Source of the DNA: Camellia lanceoleosa
Taxonomy: Eukaryota; Streptophyta; Magnoliopsida; Ericales; Theaceae
NCBI GenBank assembly: GCA_025200525.1
Contig: CM045770.1
Coordinates: 128,988,200 to 129,052,199, forward strand
Reading direction: 5' to 3'
Length of the DNA stretch: 64,000 nucleotides
The notes under the pieces are model-generated. The model searched no databases and was not told the DNA's origin. It worked only from the letters and a program-made list of their open reading frames with translations. This document shows positions 27,879 through 57,455 of this stretch, in pieces. Both the position numbers and the translations under genes were made by a program. How positions within the stretch are numbered: the first letter of the stretch is position 1; every line of letters begins with the position of its first letter.

Positions 27879-27896
27879 ACTTTCCTTCGTGAGAGT
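27879..27896 (+). other. Conserved LTR hairpin (copy in LTR c)
   Basis: ACTTTCCTTCGTGAGAGT; the six-pair stem includes one T-G wobble. It is followed by GCAATGTAATAATGTGT. Confidence 0.5.
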
Positions 27897-29451: not shown

Positions 29452-29635
29452 TTAGTATCATTATTGTTTGTCATTGTTAATTGTTACAATTAAATAGTAA
29501 GTAATACACTTTTACTTCAACACTTCAGTGGTTGGGAACATCTAAATTAGTCACACTTTCTTATGAACTTTTTTTTTCTTTAATGATCTTTTCTTTTTTT
29601 AAATAATGTTGAAATTTTTTAACTTTTTAATTAGT

Positions 29636-30159
29636 TGTAACGCCCCTGAATAATTACAATAAAATCATCTACAATATTAACAAATAATTATATCATTTTT
29701 AATACAGTGCCCCTTCCATTCCATATGGTCTTGTAGTACAAAAGATAACACATGCGGTTATACATTTATAAGCCCTAACCCTAAATCTATACCATGTGTT
29801 GTATGTTAAAGATATGAAATACAAGTTAAACAATTAAGAAATGCCCTAAGGACTTACAACTTTGCAAGACAATGCTTGGTTACAACAAAATGGATTTTAA
29901 ATCCAATATAGTTAAAGCCTTAGACTTGTACAAAACAAACACAACAAATTAAACAAAATGAAGCTCTTGCTTCCAAGTCCTCCCAAGCTATTGCCTCAGC
30001 GGAGGCATATCATCAGTAGCTGAAAATGGTTTTCTCGCATAGGCTGAGCCAAAGCTCAGTAGAAATAATCCAACACAGTTCATGAATCTTAACAAAGATA
30101 TAAGGTGAATGCATATGCAATGCTCGTGCCAAAACATTTTCATTTCTCTTTCCAAAAAC
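29636..30159 (-). mobile_element. Distal part of the gypsy II 3' LTR
   Basis: On the minus strand it ends GGGGCGTTACA and is collinear with 56957-57455, the 5' LTR of the same element type that is followed by a PBS. My count is about 55 differences over 500 bp, mostly transitions. No PBS follows on the outer side, so this is the outer end of a 3' LTR. It stops exactly where the CACTA terminus begins at 30160. Its inner part is found at 49157-50700. Confidence 0.7.
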
Positions 30160-31080
30160 CACTATAACAAAAAAGGTCTCTGGTGACAAACTAATTTTTG
30201 TCTCTAAACATCAAATTTTCGTCACCAAAGTGATCTACAACGAAATAATTTTGTCACAACGTTTGTCACCTATACGTTCTCGCTAAAAGTAGCTATTGAT
30301 GTAAAATCGTTTCATTGCCTATTTTTTAGCGATGAAATTTTTCATCTCTAAAAGTTATATTTTTCGTCCTCTATAACATCAATTTTGTCACTAGAATTAG
30401 TTAATATTTTGTTTTAATTGTTTTGGCCACGAAATATTTTGTCACCAAATATGAAGATAGAGATTTTAGTGACAAAAATATTCGTCACAAAAATAAGCAC
30501 AAAACAAAATTCTTCAATGGCAAAAAACATTTTGTCGCCAAATATTTCAATTTAGCGATGACATATTCAACAAATGTGACAAAATTATTTGTTTAGAACT
30601 ATATCATTAGTGACAAAATTGTTCGTTATGTTTTTTGAAAACTAATAGCGATGGTTTTTTTTTTTATTTCGTCACTAATAATAATTAAATTTTTTAAAAA
30701 TGAGGGTAATATTTTCAATTTTTCTTTTCACTAAATATTCACTACGCATTTTAATAACATGTTTAAAAAAATATCTATTACAGATCAATACAACAATCTG
30801 TTCATTTTCATAAACACCGCTATCGAAATGTCTCATAATATCCACAAAAATACAAGATCAATTACGGATTACCAAACACATCTCCTAATATCCTCAAAAA
30901 TATTATATCAAGTGCGGATTACCAAACATGTCCCCTAATACCCACAAAAATATAAAATTTACAATGCAACCAAAATACATGTAAGGTAATATAAACAAAA
31001 ACACAAAATGAGCAAGCTTTTGCTCCCCAAATTACCAAACACGCCTATATCTAATCTCCAATCTGCAACAAAACAAAAAA
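30160..31080 (-). other. CACTA 3' terminus and subterminal repeats
   Basis: The terminus CACTATAACAAAAAAGGTCT resembles CACTACCACAAAAAGAGTCT at 50701. About 500 bp follow with repeated TTTTGTCACC, GTGACAAAAT and GCGATGAAAT motifs, the kind of sites bound by the TNPA-type protein in this superfamily. 30700-31080 is AT-rich with no feature I can name. Confidence 0.6.
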
Positions 31081-31149
31081 AAAAAAAGAAAAAGAAAAAA
31101 GAAAGAAAAAGGAAGACAATTATTATCTTATCAATCAAATATACAATTT

Positions 31150-32500
31150 AACATTTTCAAACCTAAGTGTTGAAAAAGTGTATTTTTCGACATAGTTTTC
31201 AAACCGGGAATCCCTTGTTAGTTCTGTAAATTTCCAAAACTTACATTGGCCCCTTCTGAGGTGCTTCAAGGTGTTTCACGATTTTGGCTCCCGATGGCCT
31301 ATTTTCAAGCCTAAGAGTTGGAAAAGTGTATTTTTAAAACCGGGAGTCCCGTGCTAGTTCCATAAGTTCCCACAACTTACATTAGTCTCTCTTGAGGTGT
31401 TCAAGGTGTTCCCCAGGCCTTCTTGTGGCTGTTAAACGGTTTTTGCCCTCGATGGCCTATTTTTAAGTCTAAGAGTTAGAAAAGTGTTTTTTTTGACTTA
31501 GTTTTCAAAGTAGGAGTCACGTGCTAGTTTTGTAAGTTTTCACAAGTTACAATGGTTCCTTCCGAGGTGTTTGAGGTGTTCCCCAGACATTCTCATGGTT
31601 GTTTCATGATTTTGGCCGTCGATGGCCTATTTTGAAGCTTATGTGTTGGAAAAATGCATTTTTCGACTTAGTTTTCAACTGAGTCCCGTGCTAGTTTTGT
31701 AAGTTTCCAAAACTTACATTGGTCCCTCCCAAGGTGTTTGGGCTGTTCCTTAGGCCTTCTCGAGGTTGTTTCACGATTTTGGCCCTTGACAGCCTACTTT
31801 CAAGCCTAAGTGTTAGAAAAGTGCATTTTTAGACTTTGTTCTCAAACCAGGAGTCCCGTGCTAGTTTCGTAAGTTTTCACAACTTACATTGGTCCCTCCT
31901 GAGGTGTTCATGGTGTTCCCCGAGCCTTTTCATGGCCGTTTTAGAATTTTGGCCCTTGATGGACTATTTTCAAGCTTGAGTGTTGGAAAAGTGCATTTTC
32001 CAAGCCAAGAGCCTTGTGCTAGTTTCGTAAGTTTTCACAACTTACATTGGTCACTCCCGAGGTGTTCAGGGTGGTCCCCATGCCTTCTTCTGGCCGTTAC
32101 ATGATTTTAGCCCCCGATGGCCTATTTTTCAAGCCTAAGTGTTGAAAAAGTGCATTTTTTTATTTAGCTTTCAAACCGGGAGTTTCGTGCTAGATCTATA
32201 CATTTTCACGACTTACAATGGTCCCTTCCAAGGTGTTTGTGATGTTCCGTAGGCCTTCTCATGGTTGTTTCACGATTTTGGCCCGCGATGGCCCATTTTC
32301 TAGCCTAAGTGTTGGAAAAGTACATTTTTTGACTTAGTTTTGTGCCTAAGTGTTGAAATAGTGAAAATTTTGAAGTAATTTTCAAATCAGGAGCCATGTT
32401 ATTATTTCGTAAGTTTGCACAAATTATGTTGCTCTGTCTCAAGGTGTTTGTGATGTTTCCCGAGCCTTTACATGCATATTTCACTATTTTTCCAAGACCA
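31150..32500. repeat. Tandem array of eight ~167-bp units in the CACTA element
   Basis: Each unit runs from CCTAAGTGTTGGAAAAGTGC through CGGGAGTCCCGTGCTAG and AACTTACATTGGTCCCTCC to GATGGCCTATTTTCAAG. The GTGCTAG anchor recurs near 31351, 31521, 31688, 31857, 32014, 32188 and more degenerate near 32398, with a short first unit near 31217. Spacing is about 157-174 bp in the core. The array lies between the TNPA-like gene and the 3' terminus. It has no conserved open frame. Confidence 0.85.
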
Positions 32501-32986
32501 TTCACGCTTAAATGTCAAAGTAGTTTTTTCTTCTACCCTAGTTGAAGAAGAAATTTTCTACTAAATTAACATAGAAACATAATATACTAACCAAGAAGCT
32601 TGTCCATCAGAATTTGAACTTTCCTCACTCTCAAAATTTCCTGTGATACCTTTATGCCTCAAACACTGTATGATACTTTGTATCTTCTTGCTTTATTTCT
32701 TCTCTGACTTTTGAAACCTTGCAATTTGTTCATTTTGCTGTGTTATTTGCATCTTAAGGCGTTGAACATAGTTACTATTTTTAGCAGGTGAAACAGTTGT
32801 ATTCATAGAAAAAGGAGGCCTCATGTTGAGTCATTTCACATTGCTTGACCTTTACTTCAGCACCTTGATTGACAACTCCTCTAGGGTCAAAGGGATCTCA
32901 CCAGTCTACGAGAGGTGTTCTGCTTGCGTCTGCATCATGTTGTCCTATTAATTTGAAATAAATCAAACAATTATGAGTTATTCTAC

Positions 32987-35900
32987 TCTCTCAGTAGACC
33001 ACTTAAACTCTCAAGGCTACCCTATTTTGGAGAGGGCGAATTAGGTTCTAGCTACTACATTCAACTCTGTCACGGCTCAATCTAATCTCACAAAGTGCAA
33101 TGTAAGACTAATAAATCACCAAAGAGTCCAAATCCGGCAAATCGCTTTGGAAAATCGATTTTAATCAAAAAGCGCCAAACATGGACTGCTTTGCCAGATT
33201 TCAGAGTCACCACCTAAATATTTTGTTTTGGAAAATTTAGGAAATCCTGACTTGTGCCAAAGGCCACATGTCCATCATCACCAAAGTTGCCTCGGCTTGG
33301 GAACTTGGGTACGAGGGGGGAAGGTCATGAAATGAGCACCCCTGCTCGCCCGATCAAAGAATCGGCCTTTACTAAACATGATATGTTATTTTGAAAACAC
33401 ATGTGTTCTTCTTTCAGTTTATTAGCTAACCTTACTATGTGATGCGCACAGCATACAAGTATAGACTCAATCATGTGGATTGGAACAAAATAACTCGTGT
33501 TTGTTTTTTGAAAATGGTTTGAAAGTGCTACTCGCAAGTAGGTTAAAGTGCGAATTTGCCACCCTCAAGTGGGCTTAAAACTCACAATCATCGAGTTGTT
33601 CCAATTCAAGCAATCAAGCCTTCATCCACAGACATTCATGCAGTTAATCACTTAAGCAAATAGCCTCATGTCAAGCATGCTATCATGGCAACACTCACAC
33701 TCATGCAAGGATGCTAAAGCATAAACACTTACAGTGTACTCCAAGCCAAAATAGAAAACTAGTTGGAAATCAATGCATGATCCTAATTATGTTAAAATGC
33801 CTATGCAATACATGCAAAATGCATTTAATAGGCTCGGCTATCTAAGATGGCATATGAATGCAACACTTGATAACATGCTTTGAAAACGTATTCAAGTAAG
33901 CGTATTGAAATACAATGCGGTTTGAATGATGCACCGAGCCCGGTGCATGCAAGACAAATGAGTGATGCAAACATGCAAAGCATAAGGTATGCTAATCAAA
34001 ACGTGCCCTAAAACTAACCATCGAAAGTGGTAAGTAAAAGGGAGAAAGAAATGGGGTTGGAAGACATGCACACACACACGTACCCTTATTACAACATTTT
34101 GCCCTCTCGACGGAGGGTCCGAATGAAAGCTAAGCTAATCAACTACTCTAATTAAGCTAATTAGACTAATTATTACAAACCAATCAAATAACTAGTAAAC
34201 TACTTACTAATTATTACAACACCTTAACTAACTAACAAATTAATTAAAGCACAAATTCAGATGTTAACTAACAAATAAAACTTTAAACTATGCTGCCTCA
34301 GCTCTGTTGAAGAAGTTGAACATGAATGCTCGCATTTGGTTTCTCGCCCTGAAAAGCTCTCCAGTTTGCTCTCTTGAGGCTCTGTCTGCAGGGTGTCTTC
34401 AAGATCTTGTTGCTGAAACTTACCAAAACAGTGCTGGGGAGTGCACCAGTGGCCTACCAGCTATGAAAGGTGGTTGCTGGCCCCCTGCTGGCCAAGAGTG
34501 GGCCTCTGCCGGCCAAGGATAGAAGGGTGTTGGCCATCAATGTGGCATTGCCGGCCACTGGTGTGCTGTGACACCATTCTGCAACAGAGCACAAAAACAG
34601 AGAAAATGAAAGGATCTCCCAAGGGTATGTACGTACTATGCCACTCCATATGACCTCAAAACATCAAGGGAGAGGCATCATTGGATTTAAGACCATCAAT
34701 CAAGCATCGCAATGCATGATGGCCAAAGATCTAACTTGCACAAATTCGATGAATGCACAACAAACAAGACGCTAAGACCACGACCTTATCATAAGTGATC
34801 AAAGGCAATGGAGACAAAGGGGATTGGCTCACTTTCATCACTTTGAGTATGAAGTGGGCCAATCCACCTTGTGTTCAACATAACATCCGGTTGAACACGA
34901 TGCAATGCAAACAACATGCTCATCATGGCATGAAATGCAAGACTCTAACATGCAAACAACGCATGCACAACATGTTAAGAGACTTAAGCATTAAAGCTAG
35001 TGAAGGATACAACACTAGGATCATGTAATACAATGCTCAATGGACTAAACCAGCCCCAAGCAGGACCTCATGCATGCCAAAATAGTGGCCAAAATGATCT
35101 GAAATGATAGCATGAAAGGCAAGAAAATGATGTTCATGCATTGACTCACAAACAAGGCATAAGGCTCAACTCTCAAACACAATTAAAGAGTGATAAACAT
35201 GAGAGTATAACAAGGCTATATGCTCTAAAATTATGTGTTAAGTGATGCCATATCACATAAACATCACAAATAAGGCATGCCAGAAGACCTAAAACACAAG
35301 GCTAGTAAAGAGCACTACCCAAGAAGTATGCAATACATAGCCCAAACAACCAAACCAGCTCTAGATACAGCTCAACCATGCCAAATCAAAGGCCAAAACA
35401 TGCTGAAATGATAGCCCAAAAGCTTAGACAAGCATACATACGTATTGGCTCACAAACAAGGCATGAGGCACATCTCTCAAAAGCATTGAAAGAGTGGAAT
35501 ATGTGAGTGTGACTATGCTATATACACTAAAATCATGTGAGAAATAAGGCTAAGGCATGCAATCATCACATTCAAAGCATGCTAGGGACCTCAAACACAA
35601 AGCTAGTGAAGCCCAACTACACTATAGCTATACAAAGCTAAGCATATATGACCAAGACCACTTAAAACAGACCTCAAGCATGTTAAATCAGTGGCAAAAA
35701 TGTGCTGGAGTGTAGCCAAAATAAGCTAGAATGGTGGGTTAAAGCATCAAGCATGTTAGGCCAATTAGCGAAATTACACCACAAGTGTAAGAAGCATGCA
35801 AGCAATAGCCAAACCAGCCTAAAAAAGAGTTATGGCAGGTCTAAAAGGTCACAAAAAAAATGCTTGAACAAAGCCACAAAAAAGTAGAAACACATGCTCA

Positions 35901-36944
35901 TTTGGTAGGCCAACAACACAAGCAAGCAAGGCATGAGGAGAGGGGACCACCCCCTCCCATTTTGGACCTCAAAACCACCTTTCCACCGCTGAAATTCCTC
36001 TGAGTTTCAGTGGTAGGAAGGCCAGGCAAAGGCAATTACAAAAGCTTTAAAGGATGGCTCAAAAGCTTAACAAATAAGGCATACAAGGGGGGAAACACCC
36101 CCAACTTCCACAAGGACTCAAACAACCATTTTTAACACTTAAAAATAAATCTTTTTGTAGTTGAAAGCTAGGCCTAAAACAACATGAAAAGGTGGCTAAT
36201 ATGGTATACAAACATAAGCTTAAAAGGGGAATATACTCACCCTTGAAGCACAGTAGCCAGAGGACAACTTCTGAGCCCAAAAACCAACCTTTTGAACTCC
36301 AAACAAACCTTCAAGGACCTCAGCTCCAAGGTAGTGGTGTTTGACTAGGTGTTCCTTTGCAAAAATGTGAAGACAACACACTTTAAGGCACTATTAAGCA
36401 CAATATATATAGAGAGAGAGAGTGTGAGAATTCTAGAGAGAGGGATATTTTGTCACCAAACTTTTTTTTGAACCCTTGGAGAGAGAGAGGAGCCTCCCCT
36501 TATATAAGCAATGCAAGCAAAAGCTTGCTTGACAAGTTTGAAACTTGCCTTCATCCATCCATACACGTGTATGGAGGATGGCTCAGTGAGCCACAACTGG
36601 CTCAAAATATCTAAAATATATCTGTTGAAATAATGGTGGTTGGCAGGGCCTTATTGATGGCTGGTAGGGCCTTATTGATGGCTGGCAGGGCCTATCTGTG
36701 GCCGGCAGGGCAAATACCATGGCCGATAGCCCTTGATCATAGCCGGCAGTGCACTAAAACAAGCACTAGGGAGGGACCAAAGCATGGTCCAAAAATGGAG
36801 TGGAAATGAAACAGGGTTTGGAAAGCTCAAACCTGTGACGTTCTGCTGCAAAATTCGAGTGCTCGACGAACAATCAAACTTGTGATTGGATGTCCCTGCA
36901 AGCATATCCAAGTCTTGAGGACGGTCAAAAATGGGGTGTCTACA
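32987..36944 (-). mobile_element. Solo LTR d of the TAT family, in the last intron of the TNPA-like gene
   Basis: The right end is GGGGTGTCTACA (36944), the reverse complement of the family start, followed by TCTAC. A TCTAC copy also lies at 32982-32986, but between it and AGTAGACC (32993) there is TCTCTC, so the left border is between 32987 and 32993 and the terminal base appears changed. Both flanks are intron sequence of the same CACTA gene, which independently supports insertion. It keeps both GGCC clusters (36760-36645 and 34560-34445), a TATA box (36508-36499, minus), GA tracts near 36410-36490, and the hairpin (34101-34118). Confidence 0.8.
34101..34118 (-). other. Conserved LTR hairpin (copy in LTR d)
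   Basis: Minus strand ACCCTCCGTCGAGAGGGC, identical to the LTR a copy. Confidence 0.5.
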
Positions 36945-39634
36945 TCTACACAGTAAAATAAATAATTTTATCAAAATTAATATGCATTGTCTTGTACATA
37001 CAAAATTAACTTGGCTCTTCAACGAAATCCATTCATGCCTGTCCGAATTATAGTGGATGGACTTGTAAAATTTTGCCAAATCGGGCACTTTTCCATTTGC
37101 AATTATCTAATTAATTTGTTTTTGAATGCTATTTCAAATATTTGATGCACCAAGCTGTATACCCTGACCAGGATTGATTTTGATCCACATTGATATTTTG
37201 TTTTCATTTACATCGTATTATTCACATTAGTTAGTGATTGTTCCCACACAATTGAAAGACCAATAAAAATAAGAAAACTTAACATTAGTAAGAAGAAACT
37301 TAAATTTTGACAATTAACATAAAACATTTTACCTTGAATTTTTAACTATTCCACTTGTCAATAATAGATGTCCACTGATTAAGAGCAACACTTGCAGGTG
37401 GGTAGCTTCTCACGTACTCCTCCCCTTTTGCATCCTTAAGTTGCTTGTATTGTTTGTGCAACTTGTAGGTGAAGCCACTCATTCGCCGACCAAACTATGT
37501 GTCTAAAGCCTTTGCTACATCACTCTGATTGCCTTGTAGATCAAACTGATCTTGCCAAAAAAAAAAAAAAAACACTAGAGCCTAACAACTAAACAACACT
37601 GTCCACCAAACAAAAGAAAACTAATACAAAATAGACATTAAAGAAATACAAACTAAAAAACCAAGAGTGCGGCTTAAAAACAGGGGCCCACAAAAAGAAA
37701 ACACAGTTTGCATTACCAAACCAACCAGATCTACTGCCTATAATAATAAAAAGATAGCAACTAACCACGAAGTTGTTACAAAAAGGAATCACAATAGAGG
37801 TGAAAGAACACAACAATCAGCATGGGCTGTAGCCAGCAGGGTGGAGGCCTAACCTTCAGAAGTCTGAGACTACAAATGTTAATTTAAAAACTATCTTACC
37901 AATTCCTGAAGGGCATTTCCCTATTAAGTATTCGGGAGTCCCTCTTATATCTACAAGGTTAACCTCGCAGGACTTTGAATTCTCAAGTAAGAAAGCTGAT
38001 TATAGTAACACCTTGAACACACACATAGCTCATTATAAAATAATTAAAAGAAAAGAGACAAAACATAAAAAGATAAATGATCCAGTACTACTTGTAAATA
38101 TGAAAACCATAACTAATTAATTCATTAAAAAGGGAAAAACAGAGATGCTTATCTGATTCAGGGTTGCCATATCTAATCATCCAAAACAATATGTTCAAAC
38201 TTTTATAAATCAAGAAATAAACAGTCATATCTTTTTAGATTATTGAATATGCTAAACATGATAAAGGAAAAATGGGGGCAGATGAGAAAATCCTATAGTT
38301 TCTTTACCGCCAAGCATTGCATCATCAGCTCCTTATCAGCATCATTCACCTTTTTTTATCTACGAACGCTCAGGTTTGGTAACTGCGTTTGAACCTCTAT
38401 ACCAATCTTGGAGACTAGCTTAGAGGTGTTATCTTCTACTGGCATACGAAACTGTTCAGGTATAGTAACTAACATCTTCTCATCCTTATCAACAAGCGAT
38501 GGGCCTGTATGTCGCGTATCGGGCAACGACTACGTCTATCATGTGATGTTGTAAGGACATAATATTAATTGAGTTAGTAAGTAAACAAACGCAAGTTAAA
38601 CCTTAAAAACAAGTTTGCAAACTTACCAATTGTAGCTCGGCTTTTTGTGCCCCCTTTCAAAAAAATGAATAGCCCGTACAGTTCGGACTCCACTTATTGG
38701 TTTTGAATTTGATTTCACAAGTGCAATGTGAAACAGTGGAAACACAAAAAGAGTCCAAATCCGGCAATTTCTTTTTGGAAAATCAATGTTTGAATCAAAT
38801 GCCAAAAATGGACTGCTTTGCCAGGTTTCAGAGTCGCCAGCTAAATATTTATTTTGAGAAATTTAGGAAACCTGTGACTCATGCCAAAGGCCATTAGTCC
38901 GTCGTTACCAAAGTGTCATGATTCGAGAACTTAGGTATGAGAGGGGAAGGTCATTAATTGAGCACCCCACTCATCCGATCAAAGATCGGCCTCTACTAAT
39001 CATGATGTGATTCTTATGTACAATATATATTCTCATTCTAATTATTAGGCTAACTTTACTATGTGATGCATACAAGTATAGACTAATTTTGCAAACATTG
39101 GAACACTTGAATCATGTTTGTTTTGAAAAAGTGGTCGCATATGGACATTATTCGAATTATTCCAATTTAAGCAAATAGCCTTCATCCATAAGCATTCAAG
39201 CAGTTTATCAATTAAGCATTTAGCCTCATGGTAGTATGTTTGATATGACAGCAATCACACTTATGCAATATGCTAAAGCATAAAAACTTACCTCATACTC
39301 CAAGCCAAAAGAGAAACTAGCTAGAAAAATGCATGATCCTAACTATGCAACATGACCAATGCAACACATACAATGTACAAGTAATAAGTTTGACTACTAG
39401 CATGGTATGTGAGTTAATTCAAGGCATGTGATAGCGCACGTATTCAAGTAAAGAGGTTGAATTTGGCATTCGAGTAATATGACGAGTCGAACTTTTATGC
39501 ATGTAAAATGAATGGAGGTAAGTCATGGAAATGTTAATTTGAAAATATGATGTCCCTATACTAACCATCATAAGCAGATAAATAAAAGGGGGGAAGAATG
39601 GGGGTTGGAGGACATACAACTTATTACATATTTG

Positions 39635-39650
39635 TCCTCGCGAATGAGGG
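39635..39650 (-). other. Conserved LTR hairpin (copy in LTR e)
   Basis: Minus strand CCCTCATTCGCGAGGA; four of five stem pairs are kept. Confidence 0.4.
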
Positions 39651-41957
39651 TCCGAATGTCCAAGTGTCCGAATAAATAATTATTACAAATTCAAATGAAT
39701 AATAACTAAAAGGGGCTGTCTAATTTATTATAACAAATATGCAATGATTGCGCGATGCTCCTTAGGAATTACTCTGTCTGCCTTGTTGAGAACTATTTTA
39801 TTTCACCCTATCATTGCTTTTAACCAAAAAGTGTATTGTATGCAATTTATTGGTGCCTTGCTGATCCAAAATACGACTCAGCCGAACCCTAAACAAATCC
39901 AATCATACCTTGTTTTCTTTTGAAAATCTATTTTTTTGTGCCTGAGGTGAAACAGTGCAGACAGGGTATTCCTAGCCATGTTTGTCTCTTCTACCCTTCT
40001 CTATCATAGAAAATACTCAAGAGAGGAGCAAACTCAGTTCCCCAAACCATCTATGGTTGCAAGTTGATTTGCAAGATGATTTTGGACACGATAGAACAAA
40101 GATCAATAAATACAATGCATAAAAACCACCCCTCCCTCCTATCATGAAGTGAATTCAAGAAGGGAACTAGAGACGATTCAAGGTTCATCAAAATATCATG
40201 AATTAATGTAAGACAAGCCTTGATACAATAGACTCCAAAGATAACGTCGTCAGAAAGACACTTCAAGATTCATCAAAACATCATGAATTGATGTAAGACA
40301 AGCCTTGACACAATAAACTCGGTATAATGTTCGACCGAATTCAATCAATCATATTGGTTCTTTATGTCGGCTGTAATCTAATTAACCAATTTTATTAGCC
40401 TTTTTTATTACCTTTCCCTTTCTTTATCTTTTCTCATTTTTGTTCAAAAGTGATATTTATGTACACTAAGTCCAAAACATAATAAAGAGAAATAAGCATC
40501 AACTTAGCCCGAGAAAACAGACCTTATTTTTTTCAGGGGAAATTACAAAGGAAGAGTCAACCTCATTTACCAGCAATAAGGGATTTCAAGTCAAACCCAA
40601 GATATGCAACAAGGACTAGTCAAACTCAAAAGAGTGATAATGACTTCGGAAAAACCCAAAGTGAGCGATAATGACTTTAAATCCAAACTTAATAATAAGC
40701 TATAATGACACTTTCCTTGGTGATTTCCAAGGGTTTAACTAGGAAGTTAGTTCCTTAAAAGTAAATACACCGGTGATAAAAAGAAATAAAAAAAATTAAA
40801 GATTGGCTTTAGTATAAGAAAGATGTATGCCTTTCGTAATGAACCTCCGAAGAGATTAAACCATTAAGCATGGAAAATTTTCTTTCTTATACTTGAATAA
40901 CAATCTCAAATTTTCACAACTTTTAATTGAAATAAGCAAAGAATGGAGGAAGGTTGCAGAGATGATTATGTGAAGTTGATTAATTGGTAAATATAACACA
41001 AACATAATATTAAAATAAAAATTATTGACATAAATTAAATAGCCCCTAATAGCATGATTTAAGCTAGAAAAAGGTGAATAAATTCAAGCTAGTAAATAAA
41101 TTTAAGGAAGGGTGGCTAACCCGTCCCCCCCCCCCCCAAGCACACACACACTTTTATAACTTCAAATCACATATTTTAGATGTTGAAAAACAGCCCCAAA
41201 TCAGTCCCAAATCAGCCCCAAAAAAGTGGCAAAAGTTAGAGAAATCAAGTGGGAAACACAAGGATAAAAGCTTGAAATAAGGTTCAAGCAAGGGTGATTA
41301 AACCCTCCACCTTTGGGTAGCTTTTAATCACAAGTTTCAGCCCTTAAAATAGTCCCAAAATAGTATGAAAACACAAGAATGAGGTGAACAAAGATTTAAA
41401 TAAAACAAAGGAGTCTTTACCTCTTGTAGAGAAGGTGTTCTTGTTATAAACCAAACTTGTGTTCTTGTTATCAAGAGTTTGAGTTATGATCTTCAAGCCT
41501 CAAATCAAATTCCAAGTTCAAGCTCTTGTATGGTATGTATGGATGATATGAGGGCTTCAAGGCCGATATGAAAGCTTATGGAAGGACAAAGATGAAGTAG
41601 CTCTAATATTTTTTGGATATTTCTAAGATATTTCTAAACTCTTGATATTGTTTCTTTCTCTTTAACTCTTAATCTTGTTTTTTTTTCACCTTTGATACAA
41701 CAGGATGAGCCCTGTATTTATAGAACTTAAGCTAGTGCCCAAAATATCTATAGAATTGGGGAGCTAGCAGATTGCTGTACAAATTGCCTGAAAAGTCAAG
41801 AGGTCCGGCTGGAACTTGGTGTCTCTGGCCGGAGGTCACTGATGTACGGCTGGAGGTCAATGTATGCCCACTGTTCCTCACTTTCAGGTTCAATACAGGT
41901 ACAAAACTGACTTTCTGGGGTAGAAATACAATGGGTATGGCAGGTTGGAATTGTTTA

Positions 41958-45529: not shown

Positions 45530-45539
45530 GCGTATGTTG

Positions 45540-46105
45540 TTACAATGCCAGATTTAGTGCCAACGCCTTCGATAGTGAGAGATAGCTTCTCGTCATGTAA
45601 TTCTATTGCCAATGTATTGATTAATATGAATGCATCGCATTTTTTTTTTATCTCGTCTACATTGGCATTGGCATTGGGGTTAGAAGTGGCTTGGTTAGCA
45701 TCTCCACTTAGGGTAAAGTCACCGGTTGGTGAAGAGGTTGTATTGGACCAGGGGTATCGGGTTTGTGAAATAGAGGTTGGCGATCGCCGACTCCCTTTTA
45801 TATTTATGTTGATTGATTTGTTGAGCTTTGATGTTATATTGGGCATGGATTGGTTGTCATCTTACTAGGCTGTTATAGACTGTTACCGTCAAAGAGTTAC
45901 TGTATGTACCTTGAGTGGTGATTATTTTTATTTCTTGGGAGATCGAGTTGATAGAGACTTGTTGCTAGTGTGTGATCTGCGTGATTGGGGTGAGCTTAGT
46001 CTCCTTCTTGCTACATTTTTGGAAGTTGAGAGTGATGCGATCCGAGTTGAGTTGCTGAGGGTAGTTTATGAATACCTGGGCGTCTTTCCTGAGACCTCAC
46101 AGTGA
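45540..46105 (+). pseudogene. Gypsy II aspartic protease, catalytic triad lost
   Basis: The frame at 45545-45868 reads VLINMNASHFFFISSTLALA, LGLEVAWLASPLRV and FDVILGMDWLSSY. In related elements the first block is V.IDTGASHSF; here the triad codons (45623-45631) give Asn-Met-Asn, so the catalytic Asp is gone. After a stop, 45911-46105 continues with the RD..LL..R segment and [10 protein letters not shown], the approach to RT. Confidence 0.8.
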
Positions 46106-46106
46106 G

Positions 46107-46990
46107 ATAGAGTTCTTTATTGATCTAGTGCCTGGCACGACACTGATTTCTATGGCACCATATAGATTTGCACCCCTCGAGTTGATTGAGTTAAAGGTTC
46201 AACTCCAGGAATTGTTAGATAAGAGTTTTAACCACCCTAGTACATCACTTTAGGGAGCACCGACTGTCTATGCCAAGAAGAAGGATGGGACACTGCGACT
46301 TTGTATCGATTATTGCAAATTGAGCCTGGTAACTGTTAAGAACAAGTACCCAATGCCTCGTATAGATGATTTGTTTGACCAGTTGAAGCGGTCTTGTTGC
46401 TTTTCTAAGATAGACTTGAGATCGAATTATCACTAATTGAGGGTAAAAGAGGAAGATATCCAGAAAATGGCATTTTGTACGTGGTATGCCCATTATGAGT
46501 TCCTAGTGATGCCTTTTGGGTTAACCAATACACCAGCCTTGTTTATGGATTTGATGAATCATATTTTTCATGAGTTCTTAGACTATTTTGTGGTTGTCTT
46601 CGTTGTTGACATCTTGATTTGCTCACCCTCTGAGAAGGAACATGAGAAACACTTGCGAGTGGTGCTTGAGTTGCTTAGAGCCCACAAATTGTATGCTAAG
46701 TTTAGGAAGTGTGAATTCTGGATGAAAGAAGTGAAGTTATTAGGCATGTGGTATCCGAGAAAGGGGTAATTGTAGACTCTTCCAAGATAGAAGCAATACA
46801 AGATTGGAAACAACCTAAGAATGCCTTTGAGATTCATAGTTTCTTGCCAGCTGGCAAGATTATTACCATAGTTTTGAGAAAGGTTTCTAAGTTAGCCTTA
46901 CCTTTAACTAGACCCGAAAGGGAATCAAGTTTATGTGGAATGAGACTTGTGAGAAGTCGTTCCAAGAGCTTATTGTTAGAAACGGCTCGG
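46107..46990 (+). pseudogene. Gypsy II reverse transcriptase, active site mutated
   Basis: It reads [82 protein letters not shown] and [20 protein letters not shown]. The active-site F(V/I)DD is FVVD (46599-46610), losing the first Asp, while the earlier KIDLRS Asp remains. Stops lie near 46251 and 46435, and the connection to RNase H (46770-46990) is frameshifted. Chromovirus-type RT. Confidence 0.85.
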
Positions 46991-47400
46991 TGTTGATTAT
47001 TTAGGAGAGGGTTTGGGCTATTATGTCTATTGTGATGCACCACAAGAAGGCTTGGGTTGTGTCTTGATAAAAGAAAGGAAGGTAGTAGCTTATGGCTCAC
47101 TTCAATTGAAAACACATGAGAGAAACTATCCTACTCATGATCTAGAGATAGTAGCAGTGATCTTTACCCTAAAGATTTGGAGACATTACTTGTATGGTGA
47201 GAGATTTGAGGTATTTTCCGATCACAAGAGTTTGAAGTACTTGTTTTCACAAAAAGATTTGAATATAAGGCAGAGAAGGTGGATGGAGTTTATGAACGAT
47301 TATGATTTTGAATTGCATTATCATCCGGGGAAGGTCAATGTGGTGGCCGATGCCTTGAGTAGGAAATCCTTTAGCAGTGTAGCTAATATTTCCATTCAAA
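46991..47400 (+). pseudogene. Gypsy II RNase H
   Basis: [77 protein letters not shown] and VADALSRK give the D, E and D residues of the gypsy RNase H in order. It lies at the start of a 237-codon open frame (47013-47726) that ends in the integrase zinc-finger region. Confidence 0.8.
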
Positions 47401-48925
47401 AATGGGATATGTTGGGTGTTAATGGCGAGTTCGACTTGCATCTTGGCGAGTTTGTTGAGTCGGCAACTTTGTTTACAATAGTTGCACAATCTACATTGGT
47501 GAGCAAAGTTATGGAGGCACAGAGGGGTGATCACGAGGTAGAAACCCTTCAGGATAAGATCTCTAGTGGGAAGATAGAGAAGGGCTTGACTGTGTATTTT
47601 GACTCGAGTGTCAGATACCTTGATCGTCTTTTCGTGTCGGAGTCTTGTAAAGGAAATACTTCGAGAGTTTCACTATTCACGCCTTGCGGTGCACCCGGGA
47701 GGCACAAAGATGTATCACGACCTTAGTCATTAGTTTTGGTGGAAAGGGATGAAGAAAGATGTAGTCGTGTTTGTATCAAGGTGCTTTACTTGTCAGCAAG
47801 TGAAAATTGAGCATCAGAGGCCAACGGGTTTGTTGCAACCCCTGCCTATAGCCGAGTGCAAGTGGGAGCATGTCACGATGGATTTTGTTGTGGGTCTTCC
47901 GAGGACTGAATGGGGGTAATGATGCCATTTGGGTGATAGTTGATCGATTAACTAAGTCAACGCACTTTGTACCTATGCGCAGGAGTGAGTCGGTAGATTT
48001 TCTTGCTGACCTTTATGTTAGGGACATTGTTCGACTTCACGGGGTCCATGTGATTATTGTTTTGGATAGAGATCCACGTTTCATGGCTTGATTGTAATAT
48101 AGCCTACAGAACGCCTTTGGCACTAAGTTGACTTTTAGCACCGCTTATCATCCTCACACTGACGGGTAGTCAGAGTGTACCATTCAAATCCTTGAGGATA
48201 TGCTTAAGGGTTATGTTCTTGACTTTAAGGGGTCGTAGGAGAGGCACTTGCCCTTAGCGGAGTCTGCCTATAACAATAGCTTCCAAGCAAGCATTGGCAT
48301 GGCATCTTTCAAGGCCTTGTATGGTCGACTGTGTAGATCTCCTATGTATTGGGCCGAGGTGGGTGATGCATCTATAATAGGTCCTAAGTTAGTTAGGGAA
48401 ACGATGGAGAATGTTACGTTTATTTGTAAGAGGTTAGTCACGGCTTAGAGTCGCCGAAAGAGCTATGTCGACTGTATGAGGAGACCGCTGTCCTTTGAGG
48501 TAGGAGATCATGTCTTTTTGAAAATATTACCTAGATGGGGTTTGATGAGGTTTGGGAAGAATGAGAAGTTGTCTCCTAGATTTATTGGGCCTTTTTAGAA
48601 CCTAGAGCGGATTGGGGAGGTAGTTTATCGTTTGGCCTTGCCGCCATAGCTTTCTAGGGTTCATGACATGTTTCATATCTGTATGCTCCAGAAGTATGAG
48701 CCAAATCCATCACATGTGTTGGATTGGACTGAGTTAGAGGTTGATGAGGACGCCTCGCATGAGGAGAGACCGGTTAGAATTTTAGCCACTCGAGACCAAG
48801 TCTTGCTTGGCAAGGCAATTCCTTTGGTAAAGGTGTTGTGGAGACATCATGGGATTGAGGAAGCAACTTGGGCATGTGAGTTAGAAGTCCTTGAGAAATA
48901 TTCAAACCTATTTGTTGATGTTTGA
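47401..48925 (+). pseudogene. Gypsy II integrase and chromodomain
   Basis: After a frameshift near 47645 the zinc finger reads [15 protein letters not shown] and RCFTCQQVK. The core has [40 protein letters not shown] (second Asp) and SECTIQILEDMLKGY (Glu). LPLAESAYNNSFQASIGMA and YGRLCRSPMYW follow. The C-terminal 85 codons (48668-48925) are open and read RPVRILATRDQVLLGKAI, PLVKVLWRHHGIEEATWACE, a chromodomain-like module of the Tekay type. It would target insertion to heterochromatin in intact relatives. At least six stops disable the integrase. Confidence 0.8.
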
Positions 48926-49144
48926 ATATGTATTGAAACTTTTGCTATGTCGATTTAATATTAACATTGTATATGTTTTGGAAATGTGAATTGTATATTT
49001 AATAATGAGCATGTATTTATCATAGTGATGAGAATGAATGACAGGTGGATGGGTCATGGTATTAAATTCAATTTACTATCATTGTTGTAATTGATTTAAT
49101 CATGATTTTGTCGTTGATTTAAAATTTCGACGACGAAATTCCTT

Positions 49145-49156
49145 AAGGGAGGGAGG
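49145..49156 (+). promoter_or_regulatory. Polypurine tract of gypsy II
   Basis: AAGGGAGGGAGG follows TTCGACGACGAAATTCC, the usual tail phrase of Tekay-type elements, and precedes the LTR start TTATAACAATTCTGG, probably TGTAAC originally. Confidence 0.7.
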
Positions 49157-50700
49157 TTATAACAATTCTGGTTTAGACTCGATTTGTTGATGTTTTGGAT
49201 CCAGATTTCATTGTCTTATATGGTTGTTTTTGTCTGGTTTCACTTTTTCCACATTGAGTTTGGCTATTGGAGTGCTTTGGTTATGTTTGGAACAGGTTGG
49301 TAGCTTATTGGTCCAAATTGTTTTTGCCTAGATTTTGGCTTCTTCGCTTGAGCGTCACTTCTTGCACTCAAGCGGTAATTGTAAACTCTCAGTACTTTTG
49401 TAGGCCTACAGAGATATTGGGAGTTCGCATTCTTCGCTCAAGCGACACTTTTTGCGCCCGAGCAGCGTTGGCTCAAGCAACCTTTGTCAAGCTCGAGCGG
49501 TGGTCTTCTGTCTGCAAAACTTCTTGGAGTTTGTATTCTTTGCTCAAGTAGTAATTTCTATGCTCAAGCGGTCCCATGTTTTTGTGTCTAGATGCTTGAG
49601 CGACACTTTTTGTGCTTGAGCAGTCTGCACATATATCAATTCGTAAAAATCACTTTTTACATCACTTTTTCATCTTTTTCTCTCTTTAAACATTTCAAAA
49701 ACCCTAAGTTGAGAGTCTCTCTCTCGAAAACTGACATTCTCTCCACAAATACACCTAGATCCATTGGTTTCTCTACCCTTGTGCCTTTGAGAAAAAGGTA
49801 GAGCACGTCTAGAGCCTCGTTCTAATCAGAAAAAGTTTGGATTTCGGCTTTGTTGTGGTTTCTCCATTCTTTCTCTCGTCTTCTAAGCTTGAGGTAGGGA
49901 TTCTTCGCACTCTTTTATGATTTTTAACCTAGTTATTTGTTATTTTTAAAAACAATATTGTGATTTAGGGATTTTTGAACAAAGCTAAGGTTTTGGGTTA
50001 AAAATGAAATGAGGGGTTTTCAAATGGATTTTTGAAAATGGTTGTGGGATTTGAAATGAGGTTGAATTGTGATAAAATGGTTGGTTTTGATACTTGGAAT
50101 CGGGTTTGGAAGAAAATGGGGTTTTGCCCTAAATATATCAAATGTTGATTTTTCTATAAATAATGGAATTGATGTTGGAAATATGACATTGGATTGATAT
50201 TGATGAGGATGGTGAAGTTGGGTATGTATTACCCCTCACATCTTAAAATTTGAAAAGTTCATATTTATGGAAATTAATTATTTGTTTAGAGATATCTATT
50301 TTGGGCTATCGGTGGAGGATAACTATGATTGTTGTAGAAATTGCATGAGAATTAAGAGAATTGAAACTATTTTCTCATCCATTGCATTGTGCATTGTTGC
50401 ATATTAACATATTGAAAATGTTGTTGTTTTGAGAAAAATAGGTAAATACTTTGGTGAATCTATGTTGGAGTGTAATGGTGGTATTAAGTTGGCCTGCGTG
50501 TTCTTGGTGAAAGTTTTTTAACCCACGCGGTTAAGTGTCGAGCCTTCCAGTTAATACTGGTAAAAATGACAATTTGGTAAGGCTTGTAACCTACTTACAG
50601 GCACATCCTAGAGATTCACAGTGTTGTATTCATTGCCCTCTTTTCTATTGTAAAGGAAATAGTATCATGATTTGAGATATATGTTTGACATTGCACAATT
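49157..50700 (+). mobile_element. Gypsy II 3' LTR, proximal part
   Basis: It begins directly after the polypurine tract and runs to the CACTA terminus at 50701. It includes a U3 with repeated GCTYRAGCR motifs, a CT-rich leader (49670-49745) and a long GT/A-rich tail. The end of this LTR (GGGGCGTTACA type) is missing here and is found inverted at 30159-29636. Adding both parts gives about 2.07 kb. Confidence 0.7.
49318..49625. promoter_or_regulatory. Array of GCTCRAGCG near-palindromes in the gypsy II LTR
   Basis: About ten copies of CGCTCAAGCG, GCTCGAGCG, GCTTGAGCG or one-base variants lie within 310 bp, several followed by RCACTTTTTGYGC. The core CTYRAG is self-complementary. It lies in the presumed U3, ahead of the CT-rich leader, so a cis-regulatory role is plausible but inferred. 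Confidence 0.5.
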
Positions 50701-53700
50701 CACTACCACAAAAAGAGTCTTTGGAGACGAAAACTAATGACAAAAATAAATTTTGTCATGAAAGACTTACCTTTTAGTGAAGAAAATAATATTTCGTCTC
50801 CAAATGTGCCATTTTTAGAGAGAAAAATAAAATTTTGTCACCAATGTACATACATAAAAATTTAGGTGATGAAATTATTTTTCATCATTATTTTTATTTT
50901 TTTCGTAATGAAATTTTTTTTCCCACCATTAAAAATTTTGGAGGGAATTATGCCACCAAATTAGTGGCAAAAAATTTCGTCTCCATTAAAAATATTATTA
51001 GTGAGGATAAATATTTTGTTACCAAATATTTCAATATACAAAATTATATAGTTTTGTGTTTTGGAGAGAAAATCTATTCCTCACCAAATCCATTCTCTTA
51101 ACCCAAATAATCAGTTTCCCTTTCATTTCACACACACACACGCAGGCAGACTACATCAAAACCCTTCGTTTCTCTCTCGCACCACCGTCCAACTTGCAGA
51201 CAAACACCGTCCAACTCGCAGCACCATCTACGAATTCCAAGTTAGTTGCTATCTCGACATCTCTTTCTCTACCCCTCTTTTTATTCGGGTCTCTCGTTTC
51301 TCATTTGCTACCCTTACTCTGCCTTTAGACGCATATGGGTCAAGATAAGATTAAAGCCATTCCATTCATTGCTTCTAACATTTCTATAACTTCTCTACTT
51401 TGAAGGGTACCATGAACAACTTGAATGATTTAATTTGAGAAAAAAATAACGAAAATATAATGATTCACATGTTCTATATTCTGATTATGATATTCATATT
51501 TTAACCAATATAATCATTGAATTGAATGGATTGTTGTTGATTCTACACACAATAAAGTCTCATGATATTCTGATTGTGTTTGCTTGGTGTTTGATAAAAT
51601 GCCACAATGGCTAGTTTTTTCGTTATTGTTTTGTATTTTTTTTGGGGACAAACTTCTTAGATCTCTCGCATGGAGTTTATGGCTTGTGATAGTAATCAAC
51701 TTCAACCCAAATTTCAGTATGTCAGTGTTGTGTTAATTAAATCCTCTAAATTCAAAAAAAGGTACTTTTTTCTATGGGCCTTGACATATGATAAAGTTCT
51801 CTTTCTCTGAATGTTCCCATATGTTGTTTACTGATCAGATTAGTTGAATGAACAAACTGAAGCTCATATTGGGTGGAGGATCTTTATAATTTATTGAAGG
51901 GAGACTAAAGAAAGTGTTGTCAACTATTAATGGGATATAAGGATTTATTTTATTTAGTATTTAGTATTTCTGCTCAAATGATAGAAGAGTAACTTTCCCG
52001 TTTGTCTACCCATTTTTTAAAAAATTCTCAACCTTTACCATCTGAGATGTTTTGGGCTGACCAGCCTAGCCCCATAGCACTTAAATAAAAATTTGTGACT
52101 AAATATAAGTAAATGGCCTATAGACACTGATTTCATTCCCCTTCATTAGTGCTTGTCGTTAGTATGTTCAATAAATTTGAATGGTGTTCTTCATTTGCAA
52201 ATAATTTGCTGATTCTATTTTGATTAATTCTATATCTACTTGTGTTACCTTGCTAACCTTTATTCATTTTATTTTTGCCTAGGTTTCTTGTACCCTCGCA
52301 CTTGATTATTCCCCTTGGTAAGCAGAGGCAATATACAAGTACCGAAGGCATGTATTGAATTATTTCCTCTTCTAGTTGTTCTGAAATATGTGAAAAATGA
52401 CTTCCATGAAAATTTAAAGATATAGTGATTGAAAAAATGCATTATGGGTTTTGTTCTATGCTTGTTATTTACAAATGTTAGGTCTTTGGAATTTAGAAGA
52501 TATTTCTTTGGAGTTCAATATTTTTTACTTTTTATAAGCTAATTCCTTGATAAATAATTTATTTTATAAACAGATTTCATTTTTTAATAAGAAAGGAGTA
52601 TAGCTACAAACTATAACATAGGGCACCTAAAAACCCTTAAGAACACCAACTTAATATATTAGGAAGCTCTAAATACAAAACTTCTTCAACCTATAAAGAA
52701 GTGGAACTGAAATAAAGGAGTTCCAATTAGGGAGTCATGTTTTGTATTCTTTGCTGTCACTGGCAAAGATAAATTTCAATGGGTATATATTGTTTGTTTA
52801 TATGAGATACATAAGTGAATTGAATTGGGTTTTCTATTTGTTACTAGGATAAAAACCACAAGTTCCATGAATTTATATATATTTATATGTTAAACAAATT
52901 TGCAAATTAATTGAATTGGGTTTTGGATTCTTTGCTGGGGAGACTTGTATTATATGTATATATATATATATGTAAATCATTTGAATTGTGTTTTTTTTCA
53001 TTTGCTAAAAAGAAAAATAAGAAAGTTCAAGTATGCAATGAATTTTGAATTTTTTTTTTTTATTTTCATTTGTTTTCTCAACAACTTAATGCTTTCTTAT
53101 TTATTGGTTTCTATTCAACTATGTACATGTTGGTAGTAAACAGTGAGAGGGTGATATGGAATTCTGTAGGGATCTAGTGTTTTGGTGGTGAACAAAACAT
53201 ATTTTGTAATTGATTCAAATAGTGGGATTTTCTATTTAAATCAATCTATTACACTTTAAATAGGACCTAATATTTAAACCTATTATGCTATTTCAATCAA
53301 TCACAGAGTGTGTTTTTGTTCACCTACTAGCTTGAATTAATTGTCCATCAAATGGGTGTGGCAAAATGTTGCTATGCCTAGTCAAAATTGACTATTGTTA
53401 GGGAACCTAAAATATGATTTTGTCAATATGTTATAAAACAAATATAATGATGGGTCAAGTGGTTAGTGATCAATAGGAGAGTTGATGTTTAATTTTGATT
53501 CATCTAATGTTTTTGCTTTTGTTTTGTTTTGGTTTTGTTTGTTTGTTTGTTTGTCTGGTGTCCTTTTTTTTTTTTTGTGGTTGGTTTTGTCGAAATATTG
53601 GTACTTACCTTATGTACACATTAGTTTGTATGGACATTATGTCTAATCTTTACAATTGAATCAAAATTCACTTTTTTTTTTTTTATTTCTTTTAAACAAA

Positions 53701-53979
53701 AAAAAAAAAATATATTAAAGATGTGTAGACATGTGGTAATTTTTGTTGATTTTTAATGATCTTTTTTGTTAAAGATGTGTTAAAATTATTAATGACCATT
53801 TTTTTTTTAGTTTTTATTCCTTACTTGCATATAACCTTGGAACTTGTATAAAAGTCTTTATTAAAGATCTGTACATATATTTGGTGAAGCTCTTATTGAA
53901 TTTTTCAATTTAAATAGTTTATAAATACATAAGTCTATATTATACTATATTGTTCCTAATCTTTCATTTGTGATTAGAC
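50701..53979 (+). other. CACTA 5' subterminal region and leader
   Basis: 50701-51060 has about eight TTTCGTC/GACGAAA or TTTTGTCACC motifs in both orientations. 51100-51330 is a CT/CA-rich leader-like stretch (TTTCATTTCACACACACACA). 51350-53979 is AT-rich with microsatellites (TA near 52950-52970, TTTG near 53535-53560) and a small inverted-repeat element; it is probably intronic leader. I see no coding evidence in it. Confidence 0.5.
53187..53324. mobile_element. Small inverted-repeat element in the CACTA leader
   Basis: GGTGAACAAAACA at the left and its complement TGTTTTTGTTCACC at the right enclose 138 bp of AT-rich sequence with TAAATAGGACCTAA and similar. No clear target duplication. It could be a MITE or a simple stem-loop. 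Confidence 0.4.
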
Positions 53980-56568
53980 ATGGATAAAAGTTAGATTACC
54001 CCAAGTAGGACGACTGATTGATGGATGAGTAAACTATATAATAATGGGGTCAAGTTATTTCTTCAATTTGCAATGGGAGTTTTTTTACCAGAATGGTAAT
54101 ATTTTGTGTCCGTGTATAAAGTGTGTGAATGTTTGTAGACAAAATCTTCAAAATGTGGACATTCATTTGCTCCAATATAGGATTATGCAAACTTACACTA
54201 TATGGCACCAACACAGGGAACCTCTTGTTTCAAACAAGGCTTATCATGATGACGAGAAGCGATTTGATGGTGCTGAAATTTTAGGTGGTATTGATGCCTT
54301 AGTGGAAGATCGAATAAGAGGGGAATTGATAGATATAACACAAGGGGAAGAAGTGAGAACTTTTGATAAGTTGTTGATTGATGCCAAGTGTGAGGTGTTC
54401 CCGAATTGTACAAATTATACTTTGTTGAAGTTTGTGATCGACGTGCTTAATATGAAGGTAACAAATCATTGGAGCAATAAGTCAGTTGACATGATGCTAG
54501 AGTTTTTAAGTAGACTTTTATCGAAAGAAAATTTGGTTCCAGTTTATGAAGCCAAGAAAATACTAGCTTGTCATATGAGCTCATTGATGCTTGCATAAAT
54601 GATTGTGTATTATTTCTTGATGGAGAATGCAACACTAGATAAATGTCCGACTTGTAAAACATCTAGATACAAGATCAATCGTAGAAGGGGTAAGAAGATT
54701 CCCTATAAAGTATTGCGATACTTTCCTTTGATACTAAGGTTGAAAAGACTGTACATGTCAAGGAAGAGGGCTAAGGACATGAGATGGTACAAAGATAAAC
54801 AAGTGGACGATGAGATATTAAGGCATCCTGCTGACAAGGGATGAGTGGAAGGAATTCAAAGCACAACATCCTGAGTTTGCCTTGGAGCCTCGAAATGTGA
54901 GGCTAGGGTTGGTCGTTGATGGGTTTAAACCTTTTGGGAACATGAATGACTCTTATAATTTGTGGCCCGTCATACTCATTCCATACAACTTGCCATCTTG
55001 GTTGGTTATGAAGGATCCATTTTGTTTGATGTCATCACTTATTCCTGGAGAATCGCAACCAGGGATTGACATTGACATCTACATGCAACCATTGGTGGAT
55101 GAGTTGAATGAGTTATGGACAAATGGTGCACTAACTTACGATGCCTCCACCAATGAGACTTTTCGAATGCATGCAGCTTTGTTGTGGACAATACACGATT
55201 GGCCTGTATTTGGTGACATATCTGGGTAGAGAACAAAGGGTCATTATTCTTGTTACACTTGCAATGATGAACAATATTTTGAATCTTTGAGAAGTAAGAT
55301 TGGGTACACTAAACATCGATGTTACTTGCCTGAGGACCACCCAAAAGGAAAAAGAATAGGGCTTACAATGGTAAGATTGAGAAACGGAAGAGATTTTTGG
55401 AGTTGTCGGTGGAAAAGATACAAGAGTAGTTGGACAGCGTGACAGGTGTCATACATGGAAAGCATCCAAGTAATAGAAAAAGGCCTTGTCAAGCACCTAA
55501 TTGGACGAAGGTAAGCATCTTGTATAAGCTACCCTATTGGAAGAAGCAAAAACTTTGACACAACATTGATGTCATGCATGTGGAGAAAAATTTTAGTGAA
55601 AATGTTTTCGGAACTATGTTAGGCGTTGATGGAAAGAACAAGGACACAGACAAGGCATGGTTGGACTTGAAAGATATGGGTATAAGGAAAGAGTTATGGC
55701 TAACACAACGACCCAATGGGTCATATGTCAAGCCTTGAGCAAGCTTTTCATTGACACCTGCAGAGAGGAAGGGTTTCTTTGAATTCTAAAAAAACTGCCA
55801 AGTATCTAGATGGGTATACAGAAAACATATCCAAGTCAGTGAATACAAGAAATGGAAAACTAACAGGCCTAAAAAGCCACGGCTGCCATGTACTTATACA
55901 AAGAATTCTTCCAATTAGAATGCGTGGTTACGTGGATAAAAAATTAGCACAACACTTTTTGAGTTAATTTCTTCCAAGACCTATGCTCTAGGACACTAAG
56001 ACAGAGTGAACTAGAGAAATTAGAGGAACGTATAATACACATTTCATGCAAGCTGGAAAAGATCTTTCCTGCAGCCTTCTTCGATGTGATGATCCACTTG
56101 GTTGTTCATTTGTCTCGTGAGGCTATTCCTGTGCAATATCGATGGATGTACCCAATTGAAAGGTATTTTTTACACTTATACTTGTAAATGAGATTTGCAT
56201 AAGTGCGCTACATGTGTAACTATACTCCTAATTTGTTCTTTCTTGAAGGTTTCTTGTAGTATTATAAAAATATGTGACAAACTAAGCTCGACCAGAAGGC
56301 TCAATTGCCGAGGCTTACATTGTTGTAGAGTGCATTACTTTGTTTAATGTATGTTGACGGGAATGAAACCTTGCATAATCGACCAGAATATAATGAAGAT
56401 CATGGTGAACGTCAACAAGGGTTGACATTATTCATAGAAACTATAGGTCCAATAAGTCTAATCACACGGGATACTGAAATGTCTCAAGAAATTCGTGATA
56501 TTGCTCATTGGTTTGTGTTATACAATAGCCCAGAGATAGAGAAGTATTTGGAATATGTGTTTCATTGA
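53980..56568 (+). pseudogene. CACTA tnp2 transposase, N-terminal and catalytic part
   Basis: The start ATG at 53980 leads into a transposase-associated domain (NGNILCPCIKCVNVCRQNLQ, YTIWHQHREPL). The tnp2 domain follows with SVDMMLEFLSRLLSKENLVP, CPTCKTSRYK, MRWYKDKQ, EPRNVRLGLVVDGFKPFGNM, NLWPVILIPYNLPSWLVMKD and WPVFGDISG, then HNIDVMHVEKNFSENVFGTM and LDLKDMGIRKELW. DUF4218 is present at 56000-56330 (LEKLEERIIHISCKLEK, AAFFDVMIHLVVHLSREAIP, YRWMYPIER). The last block (56347-56568) ends VLYNSPEIEKYLE. This enzyme cuts and moves CACTA ends in the nucleus. Stops near 54596, 54842, 55227 and 55736 and several frame changes make it a pseudogene. Confidence 0.8.
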
Positions 56569-56941
56569 ATTATGTTTATGCTTAGCTTTTTTATTAGTAA
56601 ATGCGTAGTAATCACTTCTTTTTTTTTTTTAAGTAGGGAACACAAAAATCTATTACAAACTCGAAATGGACATGACATCACCCATATACAACAACAAGAA
56701 TTTCCCATGTGTTTCAAAAGAGTGTAAAACATTTATAATTTTTCGACATTTACAACCTAAACAAAATTAAAATTTTATAAAACTTCGTTATTTATAAATT
56801 ATTTACTTATTATTTGTTACATGTAATTGTAGATAAATAGATTGAGAGTGGTCATTAGCATACAAACATCTCTATCAAGTGGGATAAACCCGTTGTGGTA
56901 AAAAACCCTTCCCACGTACCCAAAGTATTCAAACCCAGTAC
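56569..56941. other. Inversion breakpoint zone and gypsy II 5' leader (minus)
   Basis: The CACTA similarity ends after 56568. A T-run at 56620-56631 is followed by sequence that on the minus strand leads from the PBS (56953-56942) into an AT-rich leader. The breakpoint lies between these, about 56570-56640. Confidence 0.5.
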
Positions 56942-56953
56942 GCTTTGATACCA
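56942..56953 (-). promoter_or_regulatory. Primer binding site of gypsy II
   Basis: Minus strand TGGTATCAAAGC lies 3 bp after the LTR end GGGGCGTTACA. It matches the initiator-Met tRNA PBS (TGGTATCAGAGC) with one change. Its orientation is opposite to the gypsy II gag-pol at 44265-48925. Confidence 0.75.
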
Positions 56954-56956
56954 AGT

Positions 56957-57455
56957 TGTAACGCCCCAGAATAATTACAAGAAAACCATCCACAATATTA
57001 ATAAATAATCATATAATTCTAAATACAGTGCCCCTTCCATTCCATATGGTCTCATTGTGCAAAAGATAACACATACGGTTATACATTCCTAAACCCTAAC
57101 CTTGAATCTATATCATGTGTTGCATGTTAAAGATATGAAATACAAGTTAAACAATTAAGGAATTCCCTAAAGGCTTACAACTTTCCAAGACAATGCTTGG
57201 TTGCAACATAATGGATTTTAAATCCAATACAGTTAAAGCCCTATGCTTGTACAAAACAAATACAACAAATTAAACAAAATGAAGCTCTTGCTTCTAGGTC
57301 CTCCCAAGCTATTGCCTTGGCGAAGGCTTATCATCAGCATCTGAAAATGATTTTCCCACATAGGGCGAGTCAAAACCTAGTAGAAATAATTCAACATCGT
57401 TCATGGATCTTAACAAAGATATAAGGTGAATGCATATGCAATGCTTGTGCCAAAA
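56957..57455 (-). mobile_element. Gypsy II 5' LTR, distal part
   Basis: Collinear with 29636-30135. Because a PBS follows its end, this is a 5' LTR read on the minus strand. It is interrupted at 57456 by TAT-family LTR f, with CAAAA (57451-57455) as the presumed target duplication; the other side is outside the window. Confidence 0.75.

Follow-up and report, generated by a model that had tools for sequence, protein, structure and literature searches.

The 64,000-nucleotide stretch of Camellia lanceoleosa DNA analysed here (the window, C13:128988200-129052199) very probably holds a Ty3-type, and probably chromoviral, retroelement with a CACTA element in its 3' LTR, both of them cut by one inversion of about 12.89 kb (Table 1). 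A single inversion had been proposed in the initial annotation, and this part of the proposal stands; the length of about 12.7 kb given there has been corrected from the breakpoints seen in sister copies. All of these sister copies are other positions in the same genome (2,999,249,670 bases in 790 contigs), not the window locus in another haplotype.

Table 1. Parts of the two elements along the window, as interpreted here
Feature	Position	Strand	Basis
Outer (3'-terminal) part of retroelement 3' LTR, beyond the CACTA insertion	29636-30159	-	89% copy of 56957-57455; continues 50700 in 20 of 29 sister loci
CACTA 3' half: terminus at 30160, TNPA-like matches, tnp2 C-terminal part (DUF4216), other nested repeats	30160-43974	-	43974 meets 56860 in six sister copies
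Proposed inverted segment, ~12.89 kb	43975-56860	.	Both breakpoints set from sister copies
Inverted retroelement part: remaining leader, gag-pol, inner part of 3' LTR	43976-50700	+	
CACTA target duplication copy, ATT	50698-50700	+	Partner copy GTT, minus strand, 30157-30159
CACTA 5' half: terminus at 50701, tnp2 N-terminal part	50701-56860	+	
Retroelement leader, PBS side	56859-56956	-	Within 60 bases of the piece from 43976 onward, same orientation, in 26 of 29 sister loci
3'-terminal part of retroelement 5' LTR; rest of LTR missing	56957-57455	-	

The two elements

Using Pfam, the Transpos_assoc (in 54029-54595, E 2.4e-10), Transposase_21/tnp2 (in 54822-55226, E 3.7e-58) and DUF4218 (in 55963-56184, E 2.3e-24) domains of the CACTA transposase have been detected on the plus strand and DUF4216 (in 43295-43897, E 6.9e-13) on the minus strand. 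The earlier description of two CACTA halves lying head-on is borne out by this division of tnp2 between the strands (plus at 54.0-56.2 kb, minus at 43.3-43.9 kb). TNP2 has 366 protein matches at E <= 0.001; among the best 120 of these, the best-scoring come from Vaccinium, Rhododendron and Camellia, and the top identities, 72-73%, are to Camellia sinensis. The termini at 30160 and 50701 are alike at 23 of their first 30 bases, while the next-best candidate among 132 CACTA words on both strands reaches 17 of 30. The first 300 bases of the two ends have more 8- and 9-mers in common than all 484 control placements, in both orientations; the same is true of 10-mers in the direct orientation, and the reverse value is reached by 34 of the 484 controls. 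Across the whole genome there are 3856 forward and 3765 reverse occurrences of the 13-base CACTA-type terminus CACTACAAGAAAA, against 92 and 81 for a reversed control.

A TNPA-like protein, P0040 (PF03004), matches the minus strand in 38496-37002 and 43133-42885 and also, weakly (E 0.001), at 32902-32744; Pfam gave no match for a 47-aa piece of the TNPA-like region. Comparison of the window with itself places nested repeats in the minus CACTA half at about 33.07-36.94 and 38.63-39.70 kb. These two stretches (33068-36944 and 38628-39699) are related to repeats elsewhere in the window and are flanked by TNPA-like matches. Since both sit between such matches, the CACTA element itself has probably been struck by at least two insertions. 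The whole of 33.07-39.70 kb was also considered as one LTR element older than its host; the TNPA-like matches between its supposed ends speak instead for separate nested repeats, at least two in number. Close to the CACTA 3' end lies a tandem array (31124-32490) with units of about 160-170 bp, whose copies are 60-89% alike. In its CACTA termini, 3-bp target duplication, shared subterminal words, TNPA-like matches and a TNP2 with Transpos_assoc, Transposase_21, DUF4218 and DUF4216, the window element resembles other CACTA (En/Spm-type) elements, for which a 3-bp duplication is tabulated (PMC4423477, in excerpt); unlike them, this copy is broken by the inversion and has stops, frameshifts and further nested repeats.

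The coding region of the retroelement lies on the plus strand, with Pfam matches to gag (E 0.00067, under Pfam's cut-off), RVP_2 (3.2e-21), RT (4.9e-19), RNase H (8.4e-30), the integrase zinc finger (7.4e-8) and, weakly, the integrase core (0.036); when pieces of 45.5-47.9 kb were searched apart, the order protease, RT, RNase H, integrase was found. No Pfam match to a chromodomain was seen in 48650-48922 or in two sub-pieces of it; a PDB sequence search for one gave a best match at E 0.26, and PHROGs gave nothing firm. The integrase-end piece is closest to metagenome proteins and to proteins of Camellia sinensis, and among its 30 homologs a single one, P0145, with 50% identity across 97% of this piece, has a Chromo domain (PF00385). 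The element is thus probably a chromovirus, a label that draws on the domain order and on this one homolog. Like Ty3 chromoviruses it has the order protease, RT, RNase H, integrase, an LTR that would be about 2 kb long, and a C-terminal piece akin to proteins of Camellia and to one Chromo-domain protein; unlike them, the window copy is split in opposite orientations, is truncated in its 5' LTR at 57455, contains many stops and has no Chromo match by Pfam.

The outer parts of its two LTRs (29633-30134 and 56954-57455) form a direct repeat in the window self-comparison, 89.0% identical over 502 bp; over 499 aligned positions there are 41 transitions and 14 transversions, for a K2P divergence of 0.121. 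The 3' LTR appears to start at about 49158, where the match also ends in two sister loci, L013 and L030. In both (L013:1-60 and L030:3237-3294) the LTR start, from 49158 to about 49217, is inverted directly beside LTR position 49892, which suggests a further small rearrangement; the two loci lie about 370 kb apart on contig C8. A PBS-like stretch was spotted by eye at about 56940-56954, by comparison with an initiator-tRNA motif. The 5' LTR breaks off at 57455, next to the start of another repeat; in the 110 kb that follow the window on its right-hand side, neither the outer remainder of this LTR nor the element's 5' end was matched. That neighbouring repeat starts with TGTAGACACC and abuts the truncated LTR at 57456; these ten bases recur at 25676, 57669 and 60696, with reverse copies at 36935 and 42560, and they may be the end marks of a nested-element family common in the window. 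Stops and frameshifts are present in both elements away from the junctions; as read from their sequence, both are dead, and nothing here is predicted to function.

Junctions in sister copies

A search of the genome with a tnp2 query starting at 43973 returned the window and 39 sister matches, at 89-92% identity (40 scored of 265 candidates). In all six sister CACTA copies whose upstream bases were read, 56860 meets 43974 with a 1-bp overlap, and therefore tnp2 lost nothing at the join; the rejoining of tnp2 proposed earlier is contiguous in each of these copies. The piece at 56848-56860 is a 13-base exact match there (E 0.013 taken alone), and the longer piece that ends just before it matches at E 4e-66 or better. 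In tblastn alignments of 10 TNP2 homologs the plus half extends to 56718-56733 in eight and ends at 56430 and 56553 in the remaining two, and the minus half begins at 43973 in nine of 10 (43970 in one); the residues that start at 43973 are preceded in homologs by two short stretches, which the window encodes at 56833-56860. Some 80 codons had been left unaccounted for at this join; apart from the small deletion described below, their coding sequence is present, at about 56560-56860 (with two inferred introns) and at 43913-43973. The breakpoints, first put at 43913 and about 56600, have likewise been moved, the sister copies placing them at 43974/43976 and 56859/56860. Just upstream of 56851 there is a separate deletion of about 30 bp between short direct repeats, which is absent from the six sister copies.

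For the retroelement, the query consisted of the 300 bases of leader and gag start that follow the left breakpoint. Its 41 matches in the genome (40 candidates scored of 4998) led to the extraction of 30 loci, comprising the window itself and 29 sisters. Of the 29 sister loci, 27 contain the PBS-side leader piece, and in 26 it shares the orientation of the gag-side piece and lies no more than 60 bases upstream of it; L011 and L018 lack the PBS-side piece, and in L013 the match stops short. From the furthest-reaching alignments the leader edges lie at 56858-56860 and 43976, with about 15 bases between them that are absent from the window. The LTR part ending at 50700 continues, within 60 bases, into the part starting at 30159 in 20 of the 29 sister loci (21 have both parts); of the nine exceptions, eight are without one of the pieces at the cut-off used. 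The retroelement had been described as split in opposite orientations, with the leader rejoining its PBS and the 3' LTR closing around the CACTA element once the segment is turned back, and the sister loci, in most of which these leader and LTR pieces adjoin, agree with this on each point.

The CACTA insertion site can also be read in this set. Two sister loci, L014 and L024, are 84-86% identical to the window at this point and hold a single GTT where the window has ATT...GTT. The flanking triplets, previously interpreted as a 3-bp target duplication, are therefore a real one. As these two empty sites resemble each other and come from one contig, at a distance of about 320 kb, a shared history is possible and they are perhaps not independent.

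The possibility that the two CACTA halves come from different subfamilies, named at the outset as an observation that would count against a single inverted element, was examined through homolog identities, trees and the sister copies, and was not seen. Identities to the two tnp2 halves correlate (Spearman 0.66; 34 homologs usable for both, of 120 listed). The 12 proteins nearest to the window are the same in the N-half and C-half trees; their order differs, with P0003 the nearest in the first and P0001 in the second, and in the C-half tree support near the window is low (0.67, 0.20, 0.44). Contiguity of both sides of the join in the six sister CACTA copies settles the common origin more firmly than do the correlation and the trees, and halves of different subfamilies were rejected.

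Origin of the inversion

In the sequence of events proposed here, the retroelement would have inserted in the minus orientation, and the CACTA element would then have entered its 3' LTR, duplicating GTT. Two double-strand breaks would later have hit tnp2 of the CACTA element and, between the PBS and gag, the leader of the retroelement, and the ends would have been rejoined with the intervening piece of about 12.89 kb turned round. The order retroelement, CACTA, inversion follows from the nesting and from the fact that the inversion cuts both elements. The inversion would be younger than the LTR pair, whose divergence of 0.121 sets an upper bound on its age of about 5 to 9 million years, at substitution rates of 1.3e-8 to 6.5e-9 per site per year.

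At the right junction the two sides have two bases in common, and at the left one base is unassigned; nothing was lost on the CACTA side and about 15 bp on the leader side. No inverted homology beyond chance was found between the 200-bp flanks of 43976 and 56851 (the latter a provisional right breakpoint, nine bases off the final one): the longest match is 9 bp, and 60 random pairs gave a mean of 9.0 and a maximum of 14. From their sequences, the junctions appear to fit end-joining of two breaks without long homology. Repair of breaks by end-joining is one of two mechanisms given in a review of plant inversions (PMC7093584, in excerpt), and a pangenome study of Brassica napus is reported to find that, of the element families in inversions and at their breakpoints, Copia and Gypsy LTR elements are the most abundant (PMC12599057). 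As in other small end-joining inversions of plants, there are two breaks, a reversed rejoining, little or no homology and small losses; unlike in those, both breakpoints lie inside multi-copy elements, so that sister copies within one genome reveal the sequence before the inversion, with no need of a second genome.

Three other accounts of the arrangement have been weighed. The assembler or scaffolder might have flipped a 12.9-kb piece or made two chimeric joins, and both families are indeed repeated (4998 first-look candidates for the leader, 265 for tnp2), which is where assemblers err. However, the window is free of ambiguous bases, its breakpoints carry no above-chance inverted repeat that could mislead an assembler, and the two junctions mirror each other almost base for base, with the small losses that are usual in repair; we consider an artefact of this kind very unlikely. 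Still harder to credit are two separate head-on insertions of one CACTA family, each truncated, beside unrelated retroelement fragments. The family is certainly common, as the 39 sister matches among 40 scored candidates indicate, but the tnp2 parts meet with a 1-bp overlap and nothing missing, the LTR parts meet at the CACTA empty site, and the leader parts come within about 15 bp of each other. As each of these three junctions matches up, independent insertion would need three coincidences, and it is contradicted by the continuity of tnp2, LTR and leader in the sister copies.

It is equally far-fetched that the CACTA transposase produced the inversion by acting on the ends of the element. 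The ends of Ac/Ds yield rearrangements by such alternative transposition (PMC3470690, in excerpt), and one CACTA end does lie inside the inverted segment. Neither breakpoint is at a CACTA terminus (50701 or 30160), however, and it is their position, in tnp2 and in the leader, that disfavours alternative transposition and has led us to reject it. Inversion by rejoining of two breaks is thus the reading adopted here.

Wider context and other repeats

The locus is clearly a well-resolved instance of a known process, in dead elements, and as a single dead locus it has little direct importance. Its value is that of a clean example, in which the insertion order, the target duplication and the bases lost at both breaks are all readable in one genome. 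The combination used here, a conflict of orientation within an element together with continuity in its sister copies, could be applied genome-wide to gauge how frequent such inversions are. Among the matches listed, and in the portions of text these gave, no such arrangement was recognised in the literature on plant or transposon inversions or on tea CACTA/Tekay. It is possible, if rather doubtful, that clean inversions are frequent within the transposon nests of large plant genomes and go unnoticed, their pieces being annotated as unrelated fragments; if so, high-copy families would give base-level breakpoints, and a rate of such events, within a single genome.

Elsewhere in the window, the self-comparison also finds two copies of a stretch of about 2.7 kb, at 4724-7463 and 26202-28942, which have the same orientation and are 89.5% identical to each other.
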